The notes under the pieces were generated by a model that saw only the letters and a program-made list of their open reading frames with translations, was not told where the DNA came from and made no database searches. A program made the position numbers and the translations under genes. Positions 3,657 through 60,552 of a stretch of DNA of 64,000 nucleotides are shown piece after piece. Source of the DNA: Tetragenococcus koreensis (GTDB taxonomy: Bacteria > Bacillota > Bacilli > Lactobacillales > Enterococcaceae); contig NZ_CP027786.1 in the NCBI RefSeq assembly GCF_003795145.1, positions 310,001 through 374,000 of the forward strand, read 5' to 3'. Each line of letters begins with the position of its first letter. The first letter of the stretch is position 1.

Positions 3657-5033
3657 TTATTTGTTAAGTCTTACCTTTAATTGTTTTTTATACCAGACAA
3701 ACAAAAGCACATAGACCACAATACCTAAACCAGCAATTGCTAATTTAGTAATGTCAAATTGATGAACACCTTCACCTAGAACAATTGCAATCATTTTTTC
3801 TAGTGGGTTGGAATCAACTGAAGTGAATGTTTGTCCTTGTTCTAAACCAGCAGGGAAGTTGTCCATCGCAATTGAAGCTGAAGTGATAAATTTAGCGACC
3901 ATCGTTGCTGACCAAAGATAAATCGGAATTAAAATTGTACCGATTAAAGTCATACGAATAACTTTTCCTTGTGTAACGATCAATAAAGCAGGAGTTAAGA
4001 TGGTCATTAAAATGCCACCTAAAGGCATTACTTTATTTCCAGGTAAGATCATAGCGATAATCAAAAGGATAGGAGCTAAAAGATTCACAACGGCCCAAAC
4101 TTCTGCTCTTGAAGCAACAATTGGCCAGTCAATAGCAATCAATAATCTTCTTCCTCTTAAACGCTTGCTCATCGCATTTTGTACGCCATCTGATAAAGGT
4201 TCGATTGCTGGCCCAAACCAACTACCTACGATACTGAATAATTCTAAAGCAACTCCACCTGTGAATGCTAATTCAAAAATAGCTGCAGTAGATTGTTGGC
4301 CTAAAAGACCAATAAACACACCTAAATAAGCACCAATGGCAAATTTACTTCCCCAAAAACCAATTTTTCTATTTAATGTTTCAGCATCAAAATCAAATCT
4401 ATCGATAAACGGTAGACAAATATCAATAAAACGATTGATAAGCATCGCTAAAGGCGCAATTAGAAAAGATGGATGAGCAGTCGTTGTGATATTGTTTTCA
4501 TCATAATCAAGCACTTTATCTAGTGTTGGTTTCATTGCATCGGCATTTAACAACATCATAGAGTAAATGAATAAAACGAAAACTGAAGTAACAACGATAT
4601 TATGAGCGTAGTAGTTGAGTAACAACCCTAAAATAGATACATTCCAGATATTGAATAAATCCACATTCAGTGTTTCTGTTGCTTTCATGAATAGCAAGAT
4701 AATATTGAGAACAAAACAAATAAAGGCAAAATAAAGGGTGTAGATAGACCCCCAAGTAATTAACGCTAATGGCGCCCATCCTAAATCTGTTATAGATAGT
4801 TCAATTCCAGTTGACGCAACAAAATTATTTAACGCGGGACCAAAGGCTTCTGTTAACAAAGAAATAACGGCACTCATTCCTGTTAACGCAATTGCCATTC
4901 TTAGACCGCCTTCAATCGATTTTGATAAAGGTGCTCTAAATATAACACCTAGTAAAGTTAAAACAACGAACATTATGGCTGGTCCGCCCAGCCCTATAAA
5001 GAAATTAAATCCATTTTCTAAAGCATTAATCAT
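3657..5033 (-). CDS. GatC-type PTS EIIC component, orphan
   Basis: A 458-residue polytopic membrane protein of the galactitol PTS IIC family. It opens with FNFFIGLGGPAIMFVVLTLLGV, which resembles the start of the IIC at 48835, and shares the GGVALELFSIVGSWFGPAIEPLSDG type of conserved loop. IIC proteins carry the sugar across the membrane. They normally need IIA and IIB to phosphorylate it. None is encoded here, and the divergent operon supplies a PfkB kinase instead. This permits the idea of a non-phosphorylating permease or of borrowed IIA/IIB. The promoter region holds the palindrome CGTAATCGATTACG, shared with the regulator gene. Confidence 0.88.
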   Translation of the reverse strand: MINALENGFNFFIGLGGPAIMFVVLTLLGVIFRAPLSKSIEGGLRMAIALTGMSAVISLLTEAFGPALNNFVASTGIELSITDLGWAPLALITWGSIYTLYFAFICFVLNIILLFMKATETLNVDLFNIWNVSILGLLLNYYAHNIVVTSVFVLFIYSMMLLNADAMKPTLDKVLDYDENNITTTAHPSFLIAPLAMLINRFIDICLPFIDRFDFDAETLNRKIGFWGSKFAIGAYLGVFIGLLGQQSTAAIFELAFTGGVALELFSIVGSWFGPAIEPLSDGVQNAMSKRLRGRRLLIAIDWPIVASRAEVWAVVNLLAPILLIIAMILPGNKVMPLGGILMTILTPALLIVTQGKVIRMTLIGTILIPIYLWSATMVAKFITSASIAMDNFPAGLEQGQTFTSVDSNPLEKMIAIVLGEGVHQFDITKLAIAGLGIVVYVLLFVWYKKQLKVRLNK

Positions 5034-45369: not shown

Positions 45370-45651
45370 TTTCCTACCTCCTTGTGAAGTTCTTGGTTTT
45401 TTATTCTGGGAAGTTTACGAACCAGTCCAGGCAATTTTGCCTGATTTTATGAATACTTGTTTAGTATACAACATAGAAGGAGTAGTGCAAGTAGTTGTTA
45501 ACCGTTTTATGTTGTAGATGTTTCTCGTAATTTTTATCACAAGCGATTTTTTGTTTGTTGTCGATAAAGCAAACATTTTTTCTGAATTACTCGTTTTATC
45601 TTGAAAATTGTAACCGTTTCGTTTACACTAATCTTGTAGTAATAAATCCGA
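45370..45651. other. Gene-free leader of the nucleoside hydrolase operon with a palindrome
   Basis: The main element is at 45609-45627: TGTAACCG, TTT, CGTTTACA, a near-perfect inverted repeat of operator type. On the minus strand it overlaps a possible -10 (TACAAT), so it could repress the nucleoside hydrolase operon. No reading frame above 30 codons looks real. Confidence 0.55.
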
Positions 45652-57716: not shown

Positions 57717-58412
57717 ATGTCTGTAAATTTAACTGTTGAACAGTTCGCAAATAAAATTGACCACACTTTATTGAAGGCAGATGCGCAAAAAACAGATTTT
57801 GAGAAGCTATGTCAGGAAGCACGAGAATATGGGTTTAAAATGGTGGCTATTAATTCAGCACCTGTTACTTTGTGTAAAAAGTTATTACAAGGTAGTTCGG
57901 TTCATGTTGGTGCAGCAATTGGGTTTCCCTTAGGACAAACAACCATTGAAACAAAGGCTTTTGAAACAAAAGAAGCGATTGAAAATGGCGCTGATGAAAT
58001 CGATTATGTTATTAATATATCGAAGTTAAAAGATGGCGATTTGAATTATATTGAAAAAGAAATGAAGCGGATTGTAGATATCTGTAAAGATAAAGAAATT
58101 CTTTCAAAAGTGATTCTGGAAACTTGCTATTTAACTGATGACGAAAAGAAAAAAATATGCGAGATTGCAAAAGAAGTTCAACCAGATTTTGTCAAAACAA
58201 CGACAGGTTTTGGCTCTGCTGGGGCTACGGTAGCCGATGTCCAATTAATGAAACAAACAGTTGGAGATAAAGTAAAAGTCAAAGCAGCAGGAGGCATCCG
58301 TGATTTGAAAACAGCTAAGGATATGATTGAAGCCGGCGCTGATCGCTTAGGTATGAGTTCAAGTGTCAAAGTAATTGAAGAATATCAAGCCGAAAAAGGA
58401 AGAGTAGAATGA
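57717..58412 (+). CDS. deoC: Deoxyribose-phosphate aldolase
   Basis: 231 residues, usual length. Motifs: KIDHTLLKADAQ, VGAAIGFPLGQTT, GADEIDYVINISKL, KVILETCYLTDDE, the Schiff-base lysine in DFVKTTTGFGSAGAT and the second lysine in VKAAGGIRD. It splits 2-deoxyribose-5-phosphate to glyceraldehyde-3-phosphate and acetaldehyde. AAGGAGG precedes the ATG. Its stop overlaps the start of a zinc dehydrogenase (ATGA), so the two are coupled. The pairing of an aldolase releasing an aldehyde with an alcohol dehydrogenase is suggestive. Confidence 0.93.
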   Translation: MSVNLTVEQFANKIDHTLLKADAQKTDFEKLCQEAREYGFKMVAINSAPVTLCKKLLQGSSVHVGAAIGFPLGQTTIETKAFETKEAIENGADEIDYVINISKLKDGDLNYIEKEMKRIVDICKDKEILSKVILETCYLTDDEKKKICEIAKEVQPDFVKTTTGFGSAGATVADVQLMKQTVGDKVKVKAAGGIRDLKTAKDMIEAGADRLGMSSSVKVIEEYQAEKGRVE

Positions 58413-59452
58413 AGACAGTACGGCTTTATGGGAAAGAAAAAATACAGTTGGATGATGTAGAAAAACCGCTAATAAATGAAAATGAACTATTATTAAAAGT
58501 GAAAGCGGCTTCTCTTTGTGGCACCGATGTGCGCATGTATAAAAATGGTTATTCAGGCGTTGATGAGAATTCTCCCTTAACATTAGGTCATGAAGTTTCA
58601 GGAGTTATTGCAGAAGCCGGTTCTAACGTTACGTCTTATAAAGTAGGACAAAGGATTTCCGTTGCACCCAATATAGGCTGTGGTAACTGCGACCAATGTG
58701 TGAGTGGAAACACGCATCTTTGCGCGAATTACCAAGCGTTTGGCATTAATTTACCAGGTGGCTTTGCTGAATATTTAAAGATCCCTGGAGAAGCAATTCA
58801 ACAAGGAAATATTACACTTTTAGCAGATGAAACTTCTTTTGAACAGGCGGCATTAATTGAACCTTTCAGTTGTGTGTTTAATGGACAAGCTATTGCCGCT
58901 GTTTATCCGGGAGATACCGTGTTGATTATCGGTGGAGGTCCTATTGGAATTATGCACGCGATGTTAGCCTTTAGCCAGGGCGCGAGCCAAGTGATTTTAA
59001 ACGACCGTCATGAAGAACGATTGGCAGCGGCAACAAAGATCTTGCCCAAATTAACGGTTTTAACTAGCGAAGACTTAGCTAATAAAATTTCAGGAGAAAC
59101 ACAGGGGCAAGGCGTTAACTTGTGTATTGTAGCGGCTCCTTCGCCAGAAGCACAAATCGAAAGTATGCATTATATGGCAATGAACGGCCGCTTACTTTTC
59201 TTTGGTGGTCTACCAAAAGATCGCGAAAATGTCCCATTAAACACCAATATCTTGCATTATAAACAATTACGGATTTTCGGCTGTACCAGAGCAAGCATAT
59301 CTTCTTATCGCACATCTGAAAAGTTGATTGCTAGTGGGCAAGTTCCAATTGAACGATTAATTACCAATAGATATCCGATAGAAGAATTTAAACAAGCATT
59401 GGAGAATGCTGAAAAATCGGTTGGATTGAAGAATATGATTGTGCTTAATTGA
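58409..59452 (+). CDS. Zinc-dependent dehydrogenase, MDR family
   Basis: 347 residues. Catalytic zinc: AASLCGTDVRMYKNG and LGHEVSGVI. Structural zinc cysteines: GCGNCDQCVSGNTHLC. NAD is bound at VLIIGGGPIGIMHAM near residue 170, and GRLLFFGGLPKD follows. It is of the sorbitol/threonine dehydrogenase type. The gene is translationally coupled to deoC, so it may reduce or oxidise a related polyol or aldehyde. A hairpin-repeat array follows its stop. Confidence 0.9.
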   Translation: MKTVRLYGKEKIQLDDVEKPLINENELLLKVKAASLCGTDVRMYKNGYSGVDENSPLTLGHEVSGVIAEAGSNVTSYKVGQRISVAPNIGCGNCDQCVSGNTHLCANYQAFGINLPGGFAEYLKIPGEAIQQGNITLLADETSFEQAALIEPFSCVFNGQAIAAVYPGDTVLIIGGGPIGIMHAMLAFSQGASQVILNDRHEERLAAATKILPKLTVLTSEDLANKISGETQGQGVNLCIVAAPSPEAQIESMHYMAMNGRLLFFGGLPKDRENVPLNTNILHYKQLRIFGCTRASISSYRTSEKLIASGQVPIERLITNRYPIEEFKQALENAEKSVGLKNMIVLN

Positions 59453-59466
59453 AAGACAATAGGACA

Positions 59467-59735
59467 CGGAGAAAGAAATGACAAACTATTCTCCGAAAAC
59501 AAAATCATGGATAACGAAATAAGAAAGGGTTATTCGAAGATGGAATGACGGATAATAGGTTCGAAAAAGTATTATCTGAAATCACTAACAAGTAACGAAA
59601 AACGCTCAAAAATGGCTAAAGACGGATAATGAAACAAATAAAATACTATCCGACTTTGAAATCATGAATAACAAAATAATAAAACATTCTCCGAAAACAA
59701 GATGACAGATAAGAGATCCATGGATTTCTTATCCG
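59467..59735. repeat. Array of about six imperfect hairpin-forming repeats
   Basis: Each unit reads roughly CGGATAA, 12-20 variable bases, TTATCCG plus A-rich spacer. Arms: CGGAGAA/TTCTCCG (59467-59473, 59489-59495); GGATAAC/GTTATTC (59509-59515, 59529-59535); CGGATAATA/TATTATCTG (59549-59557, 59570-59578); CGGATA/TATCCG (59623-59628, 59647-59652); a degenerate TGAAT/ATTC unit (59665-59689); CAGATAAGA/TCTTATCCG (59706-59714, 59727-59735). Loops differ while arms keep pairing. Spacers share AAAACAA and GATGAC-like words. Not CRISPR. Confidence 0.75.
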
Positions 59736-59770
59736 AAAAATAGGAAACGCGTCATCTTTCTATAAGTAAG

Positions 59771-59810
59771 CTCCCATTTTACAATTTAAGTAGAATGGGA
59801 GTTTAATTTT
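59771..59810 (+). terminator. Terminator between the repeat array and the RpiR gene
   Basis: CTCCCATTTT (59771-59780) pairs with AGAATGGGAG (59792-59801), followed by TTTAATTTT. It can end plus-strand transcripts from deoC and the dehydrogenase; the minus-strand side has fewer T residues. Confidence 0.75.
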
Positions 59811-60552
59811 CTCCTACTCTCAACGCATAGGAGTCCAAAAGTACTCGCGCTAAAATAGCCAGTGGTAACCTCGAGCGTACCTCATAATCAGGGAAAAATG
59901 ATCCTTCCGATTTAAACCCTACGAATGGGATTTCGATCAAAGACATCAAACTAGAATGACGATTGGCCGTTATTAAAATTGTCCCAATTTCTAATTTATA
60001 ACAGTTTTTAGCTGCAGTAACGAGTTCTTCTGTCTCCCCATTCAGCGAGATAAAAATAACAATATCGTCCTTGCTTAATTTTTTACTCCTTGTTTTTATA
60101 ATCTCGGGGTCCGCATGTAACTCACAGTATTTTCCCGTTAATTGAAATTTTACCATCATTTCTTCAGCAGTCATTTCTGAAAAACCCCGCGCAAAAATAA
60201 TGATTCGTTTGGCCACTTTAATTCTTTGAATGGCGTCTTCAATATTCCCGATTTCGATCATATTAATGGTTCGAGCTACTTCTTGTTCATTTTTTAAGAT
60301 CGCTGTCCGTATCCCTTGATCGACTTTATCTAAAGCAGAAAAGTTAATATCTTTGTAAGACATTTCTTTTAAATGATGTTTAAAGGCTGTGAAACCTTCA
60401 TAGCCTTTTTTCTTCATGGTGCGAACAATAGTTGCTGTTGAAACATTGGCCAATTCACTTAATTTAACAATGGAATAATTAGGAATCGTTTGTAGATTTT
60501 CTTGAATAAACTCCCAAACATATTGTTCTGAATCGCTTAGTTTGTTATCCAT
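59803..60552 (-). CDS. RpiR-family transcriptional regulator
   Basis: 249 residues: HTH_6 at the N-terminus (LSDSEQYVWEFIQE, KLSELANVSTATIVRTMKKKG) and a SIS domain (IIIFARGFSEMTAEEMMVKF, IVIFISLNGETEELVTAA). It diverges from the kinase-PTS-aldolase genes over a 158-base spacer that carries an 18-bp inverted repeat. It is therefore the likely regulator, responding to a ketose phosphate. A GGAGAG ribosome site precedes the ATG. Confidence 0.88.
   Translation of the reverse strand: MDNKLSDSEQYVWEFIQENLQTIPNYSIVKLSELANVSTATIVRTMKKKGYEGFTAFKHHLKEMSYKDINFSALDKVDQGIRTAILKNEQEVARTINMIEIGNIEDAIQRIKVAKRIIIFARGFSEMTAEEMMVKFQLTGKYCELHADPEIIKTRSKKLSKDDIVIFISLNGETEELVTAAKNCYKLEIGTILITANRHSSLMSLIEIPFVGFKSEGSFFPDYEVRSRLPLAILARVLLDSYALRVGEN

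Follow-up and report, generated by a model that had tools for sequence, protein, structure and literature searches.

Short intergenic palindromes that are often clustered, mostly between convergent or unidirectional genes, are described as REP and BIME elements in PMC3733652, which gives GTAG and CGTC tags for the repeats; the GTAG class has a RAYT/Y1 transposase gene beside them. BrickBuilt of Porphyromonas gingivalis, a minisatellite inside a MITE, is described in PMC4596501 as an intergenic tandem repeat of limited host range, with 23-nt repeats that lack spacers and 19 copies in one strain. Efa-1 of Enterococcus faecalis, a genus taken here to belong to the same taxonomic family as Tetragenococcus, is presented in PMC2267715 as an intergenic family of 163 nt with two adjacent stem-loops. 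ISLre2 elements are reported in T. halophilus in PMC8249745. The array family analysed here resembles each of these in some respects. In contrast to the tagged REP elements, the 144 units of the genome studied carry GTAG in no case and CGTC in one (within 6 nt outside each arm); their period is fixed at 41 nt, the arms of a unit show no covariation beyond that of the array, and the single Y1_Tnp gene (C1:967148) lies 26 kb from the nearest array (C1:993241). Unlike BrickBuilt, the units are 29-nt palindromes with 12-nt spacers, and MITE flanks were not seen at 20 of 27 arrays. Efa-1 was compared by size, copy number and fold only, and differs in that the array, searched with the covariance model R1 described below, was found in none of 96 other genomes of the family. 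No description of the repeat was found among the matches listed in the open-access literature (subscription papers lay outside the scope).

The window, a 64,000-nt stretch (C1:310001-374000) of the 2.73-Mb genome of Tetragenococcus koreensis (G000), holds an intergenic, A-rich array of six palindromic units at 59467-59735 (Table 1). A sequence-only reading of the window had noted six hairpin-type repeats in about 270 bases, and these are real. The plan it proposed, arm, loop, arm and A-rich spacer, also stands, but the array is more regular than described, with units of 29-30 nt, 12-nt spacers and a 44-nt module between two groups of three units. The pattern CGGATAA-N{2,25}-TTATCCG has five matches in the genome, all of them 29 nt long, and its reversed control has none, so that the repeat exceeds chance. 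The array was correctly placed between a dehydrogenase stop codon and a terminator-like hairpin; in the 2.8 kb scanned, two such hairpins were found against 1.7 expected by shuffling. It was likewise correctly judged to be neither coding, nor a CRISPR, nor a terminator cluster. Unlike the identical direct repeats of a CRISPR, the units differ outside their 7-nt arms, and no cas genes were recognised by eye among the array neighbours. No Rfam family matched the window array, either over its gathering score or, in locus L041, at E ≤ 1, and in the scanned loci L041, L144, L172 and L177 no listed match over threshold fell on an array. Elsewhere in the window, a PreQ1 riboswitch aptamer at 45387-45431 on the minus strand exceeds the Rfam gathering score.

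Table 1. Features of the array and its surroundings (positions in the window)
Feature	Position	Strand	Remark
Zinc-binding dehydrogenase gene (ADH_N, ADH_zinc_N)	58409-59452	+	stop 14 nt upstream of array
Palindromic unit 1, CGGAGAA - 15 nt - TTCTCCG	59467-59495	+	29 nt
Palindromic unit 2, TGGATAA - 15 nt - TTATTCG	59508-59536	+	29 nt, two wobbles
Palindromic unit 3, CGGATAA - 16 nt - TTATCTG	59549-59578	+	30 nt, one wobble
Central module, 44 nt	59579-59622	+	separates both triplets
Palindromic unit 4, CGGATAA - 16 nt - CTATCCG	59623-59652	+	30 nt, one mismatch
Palindromic unit 5, TGAATAA - 15 nt - TTCTCCG	59665-59693	+	29 nt, two mismatches
Palindromic unit 6, CAGATAA - 16 nt - TTATCCG	59706-59735	+	30 nt, one mismatch
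Right flank of array	59736-59771	+	similar to right flank of one MITE-like array (C1:1180421, L138)
Intrinsic-terminator-like hairpin, 3' of array	59767-59805	+
RpiR-type regulator gene (HTH_6, SIS)	59803-60552	-	convergent neighbour

The covariance-model search proposed with the sequence-only reading returned further copies both in the same genome and across the genus. The model, R1, was built from 18 triplets that included the window units, whose own scores therefore hold by construction. It gave 85 matches in the genome at E ≤ 10, and the matches at E ≤ 1e-3 merged into 26 arrays. Together with a one-unit MITE remnant at C1:1233242 (E = 5.25), these make up the 27 arrays used for analysis of gene context. 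Two weak matches at C1:57515 and C1:1140452 (E 0.087 and 0.87) were omitted from the census as doubtful; by eye their arms resemble GGAGAAT/ATTCCCC and perhaps represent a further half-site class. The array family was found in all nine Tetragenococcus genomes searched. At E ≤ 0.01, 10 of 105 genomes of the taxonomic family matched, namely the nine of the genus and G044, whose match, the sole one in the 96 non-genus genomes, is a gene end with a terminator-like hairpin and not an array. At E ≤ 1, 16 of 59 genomes matched: the nine of the genus and, with one weak match each, seven of the other 50. Among these seven genomes, the matches in genus g7 were read and rejected as arrays; they are gene ends that carry terminator-like hairpins, one hairpin, and sequence of coding type. 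The window array had no match in plasmids or phages, one MITE had none in plasmids, and exact two-unit patterns of three half-site classes were found in no viral contig; a plasmid or phage origin was rejected on these grounds. GC skew of the sampled stretches locates the origin at about 2.1-2.2 Mb and the terminus at about 0.7-0.95 Mb. With 14 of the 27 arrays at 0.99-1.60 Mb, all on the same arm, a role as terminus or macrodomain marker was dropped.

The units obey a strict spacing rule, in which a 7-nt half-site is followed by 15 nt, an inverted half-site and a 12-nt spacer, with a period of 41 nt. Perfect left-right half-site pairs spanning 29 nt occur 94 times in the 27 stretches of the studied genome (174,326 bases), where the median count for other span lengths is 2. 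Relatives have 138 such pairs, whereas 29 nt is outside the six commonest span lengths in 120,019 control bases. A gap of 12 nt to the next left half-site is seen 70 times in the genome and 99 times in relatives, and a left-to-left distance of 41 nt occurs 65 and 97 times, respectively. The half-site pairs were counted without a chain rule, and the count is thus unbiased, since the penalties of the chain finder favour a period of 41 and a length of 29. The chain finder, which yields false positives (97 chains of at least three units in 60 random windows), split 18 of the 26 arrays into two chains (exactly three plus three in 12) and one into three chains; two others have seven units in a row and five a single chain of two or three. 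Among 59 non-redundant arrays, the distance across the module is 73-75 in 19, 82-84 in 10, never 76-81 and once 34. The empty range between the two groups speaks for the lattice reading given below, but 83 is also two unit periods plus one, and this distance may stem from a decayed unit and not from phasing. Positions 3 and 4 divide the half-sites into three kinds, with GA, AG or AA (classes GGANAA, GAGNAA and GAANAA). Arrays with two or more mixed-class units and near-duplicates were left out of the sets used for module distance and covariation. In one array (L132, C1:674967-675199) a single spacer has the reverse composition, T-rich among A-rich ones, as if a unit had been inverted.

The location of the arrays is also biased. 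Among the 20 non-mobile arrays of the genome, 19 could be placed with gene calls from a home-made codon score: 11 lie between convergent genes, five are in tandem with the A-rich strand, three in tandem against it, and none is divergent. Convergent placement in 11 of 19 exceeds both the 9 of 111 gene pairs in control stretches (p = 2.4e-6) and the 21 of 136 pairs of the same genome with gaps of at least 60 nt after subtraction of the arrays (p = 1.4e-4). The seven mobile arrays, described below, comprise four divergent, two tandem and one unplaced, with none convergent.

The sequence-only reading had claimed that the arms covary or keep their pairing, and this could not be upheld. Only one of the six window units pairs perfectly, two contain wobbles only and three contain mismatches; the quoted arm pair CAGATAAGA/TCTTATCCG contains an A-C mismatch, and TGAATAA/TTCTCCG, absent from the quotes, has two mismatches. 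The covariation test suggested at the time gave no excess of pairs with two-sided change, 6 against a shuffle mean of 6.0 over the 18 triplets. In the same set, 12 cells showed two-sided change against 9.1 after shuffling (78 of 500 shuffles as high), and both the proportion of paired cells (86.8% against 85.3%; 30 of 500 as high) and the covariation score (0.183 against 0.157; 29 of 500), two of five measures, were borderline. This upward lean arises because the class positions 3 and 4 agree between the arms, as was seen in a larger set of 86 loop-distinct units, all with both arms fitting the half-site YGRRNAA. In these 86 units, position 5 is free, with 43 agreements where 43.1 are expected, and no significant excess of pairing is seen at positions 8-14. 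Under free shuffling, agreement at position 1 was above expectation both in class A (observed 56, expected 39.7) and among the loop-distinct units (observed 55, expected 44.0), and position 5 in class A reached 47 against 39.3 (p = 0.02). When right arms were shuffled within arrays (34 arrays, 154 units with at least 11 of 12 scored letters), no significant excess agreement was seen at any of the seven positions (position 1, 103 against 97.8, p = 0.07; position 5, 83 against 81.5, p = 0.37; others p ≥ 0.45). The arms of a unit agree no better than the arms of other units in the same array, and stem covariation is not supported. Apparent hairpin covariation can be an array-level consensus and not RNA pairing.

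This lack of unit-level covariation weighs against an array of RNA hairpins in 3' untranslated regions that stabilises or processes transcripts, a role also offered by the sequence-only reading. So does position 5 of the 7-bp stem, where a standard pair is missing in 39 of the 86 units. Such a role would agree with the position of the array after a stop codon, with its purine-rich linkers on one strand and with the convergent setting of 11 of 19 placed non-MITE arrays, but none of the six MITE-type arrays that could be placed has such a setting, four of them being divergent. Also in its favour, the predicted RNA folding of the window array is better than that of shuffled sequences (z -3.17 on the plus strand and -2.16 on the minus strand), though palindromes give such an excess under any model. 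The nearly fixed loop length counts against it. We regard the RNA reading as quite improbable.

Comparison of orthologous arrays indicates which parts of the unit are conserved. Five pairs were chosen from a larger set after removal of near-identical strains and of pairs whose units were unequal or could not be aligned. Arms without position 5 had changed in 25 of 372 cells and loops plus spacers in 183 of 837 (p = 1e-11; loop 93/465, spacer 90/372); the half-site YGRRNAA is therefore under selection. From position 1 to 7, the arm changes were 6, 2, 2, 14, 11, 0 and 1, each of 62. Of seven aligned pairs, six are free of gaps inside the array, although two of these differ in their detected ends; the seventh, L137/L207, has three gaps. 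The loops, described earlier as unlike one another, are so within an array, but they align between orthologous arrays in several pairs. A single pair, C1:2513427 (L152) and L177 in G005, accounts for 13 of the 14 changes at position 4; in it this position differs in 13 of 14 half-sites while the loops and spacers of seven units align. Both arrays lie upstream of what appears by eye to be the same pyroglutamyl-peptidase gene, and the switch is one event at one locus. Without this pair, the arms had changed in 5 of 288 cells and loops plus spacers in 114 of 648. Class B arrays remain elsewhere in G005 (L182, L185).

Among the roles offered by the sequence-only reading, a protein-binding array fits best, with the protein and the function being putative. 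We give about an even chance to a reading in which the array, as double-stranded DNA, forms a lattice of sites for a DNA-binding protein that is sequence-specific and probably dimeric. Each palindrome would present two inverted YGRRNAA half-sites, 22 bp apart from centre to centre, and the next half-site would follow 19 bp on; with these two steps half-sites would recur about every two helical turns on one face of the helix. The half-site lattice would overlie A-tracts in helical phase. Across 26 arrays, A-tracts (AAA/TTT) have a phasing ratio of 1.62, whereas shuffling of loops and spacers gives 0.96 and none of 500 shuffles reaches the observed value; the shuffle overstates the phasing because phase is partly inherited among related units. 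One strand of the loops and spacers is rich in A (2367 A and 1014 T of 4704); a double-stranded reading does not call for this bias, which counts against it. Outside MITEs, the half-sites stay under purifying selection, and a bound array, mostly between convergent genes, may act as an architectural element at gene ends, whether as a boundary, as a roadblock or in the handling of supercoils. As classes A, B and C coexist in G005, a single protein with one specificity may be insufficient.

A subset of the family is mobile. Seven arrays of the genome (the A-prime subset) share related MITE-like flanks, one with a partial left end; the arrays at 674967 and 1504114 also gave a weak left-flank match to each other. 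Of the seven elements tested in G005, three are bounded by identical words of 8, 9 and 9 nt, against 0 of 156 mispaired controls; none of six elements in the studied genome is bounded by an identical word of at least 8 nt. Two of the G005 elements, at sites L172 and L168, carry 9-bp target duplications and correspond to empty sites in relatives. At L172 the two flanks abut in G004, G006 and G000, whereas in G001, G002 and G007 they are close together and the element is missing; at L168 the element is absent in G004, G006, G000, G002, G007 and G001. The abutting flanks overlap by 9 nt at both sites in G004 and at L168 in G006. The left end of these MITE-like elements is the end of an insertion sequence of about 1641 bp that encodes a 476-aa PF06782 (UPF0236) protein, which we take to mark the ISLre2 family with its 9-bp duplications. 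Exact 9-bp duplications flank three of the four IS copies examined. The elements thus resemble ISLre2-type (UPF0236) MITEs in the IS-shared left end, the target duplication and the empty sites, but the likeness is confined to the A-prime subset, and the right end of L172 is only weakly similar to the IS end, sharing GTAT and little more. Since a subset sits in MITE-like elements, the earlier suggestion of a miniature repeat family is part of the answer; amplification in place covers only part of it, the family being dispersed over the chromosome with some copies transposed.

These elements, with their duplications, empty sites and IS-derived left end, lend some weight to a selfish minisatellite within a MITE, in which the palindromes would serve transposition by binding transposase or a host factor and the non-MITE arrays would be old copies without host function. 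The right flank of the window array is similar to that of the MITE-like array L138 (alignment score 36, shuffled maximum 29), with no clear similarity to the other three flanks compared (p = 0.05, 0.15 and 0.54), but an IS-type left end was not found near it (best 13 of 22 letters within 58801-60400). With R1, three of the four IS copies gave no array and the fourth gave a single weak match, of 28.2 bits (E = 7e-4 in 7.5 kb; in the genome a similar score has E = 0.26). Moreover, orthologous non-MITE arrays keep the half-site while their loops drift, and in 20 of the 27 arrays no MITE flanks were seen. We consider a purely selfish origin possible but somewhat unlikely. On the protein-binding lattice reading, the family has reached many intergenic sites, part of it within MITEs sharing an end with a resident UPF0236-transposase insertion sequence.

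The window site itself varies across the genus. In G007 the orthologous site carries about six similar units in tandem without the module, in G002 it retains a right-arm remnant, and no array was found in G004, G005, G006 or G008, where the array is dispensable at this site because it is absent, a point against the lattice reading. G004, G005 and G006 are presumably T. halophilus. The orthologue of the dehydrogenase was not found in G001 and G003. Its nearest named matches, 75-80% identical, are three T. halophilus loci and a Tetragenococcus MAG, and the named T. halophilus loci have no array at the orthologous site. Absence in several relatives would fit a decaying relic without function, but the strict spacing, the selection on the arms and the presence of the family in all nine genomes of the genus make this a very improbable account.

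If the lattice reading is true, Tetragenococcus carries strictly spaced protein-binding lattices, about two dozen in the studied genome, and offers a natural case in which the half-sites of one array switch together between species, as well as an opportunity to test directly how mobile repeats turn into chromosomal architecture. The fuller proposal is a genus-wide lattice read by a dedicated DNA-binding system of several specificities, in which whole arrays would be re-specified in concert, spread by MITEs and then kept by selection as architectural or insulating elements between convergent genes; taken as a whole, we consider this unlikely.

Several minor observations were made at the array loci. 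In G005, the same array with its flanks occurs three times (L177, L178 and L179) at 99-100% identity, two of them near contig ends; either the region is duplicated or the assembly has produced the copies. In L177 (G005:C1), at a distance of at least about 0.8 kb downstream of the array, positions 4070-4254 match the Listeria sRNA rli28 over threshold and 4316-4401 match the RatA antitoxin RNA just under it. Some 2.5 kb separate a T-box leader (L144, 271-503, minus strand) from a class B array in the studied genome. In T. halophilus subsp. flandriensis (L095/L157), a single terminator-like hairpin, GAGTAA/TTACTC, was seen by eye after the dehydrogenase gene, where the window has the array.
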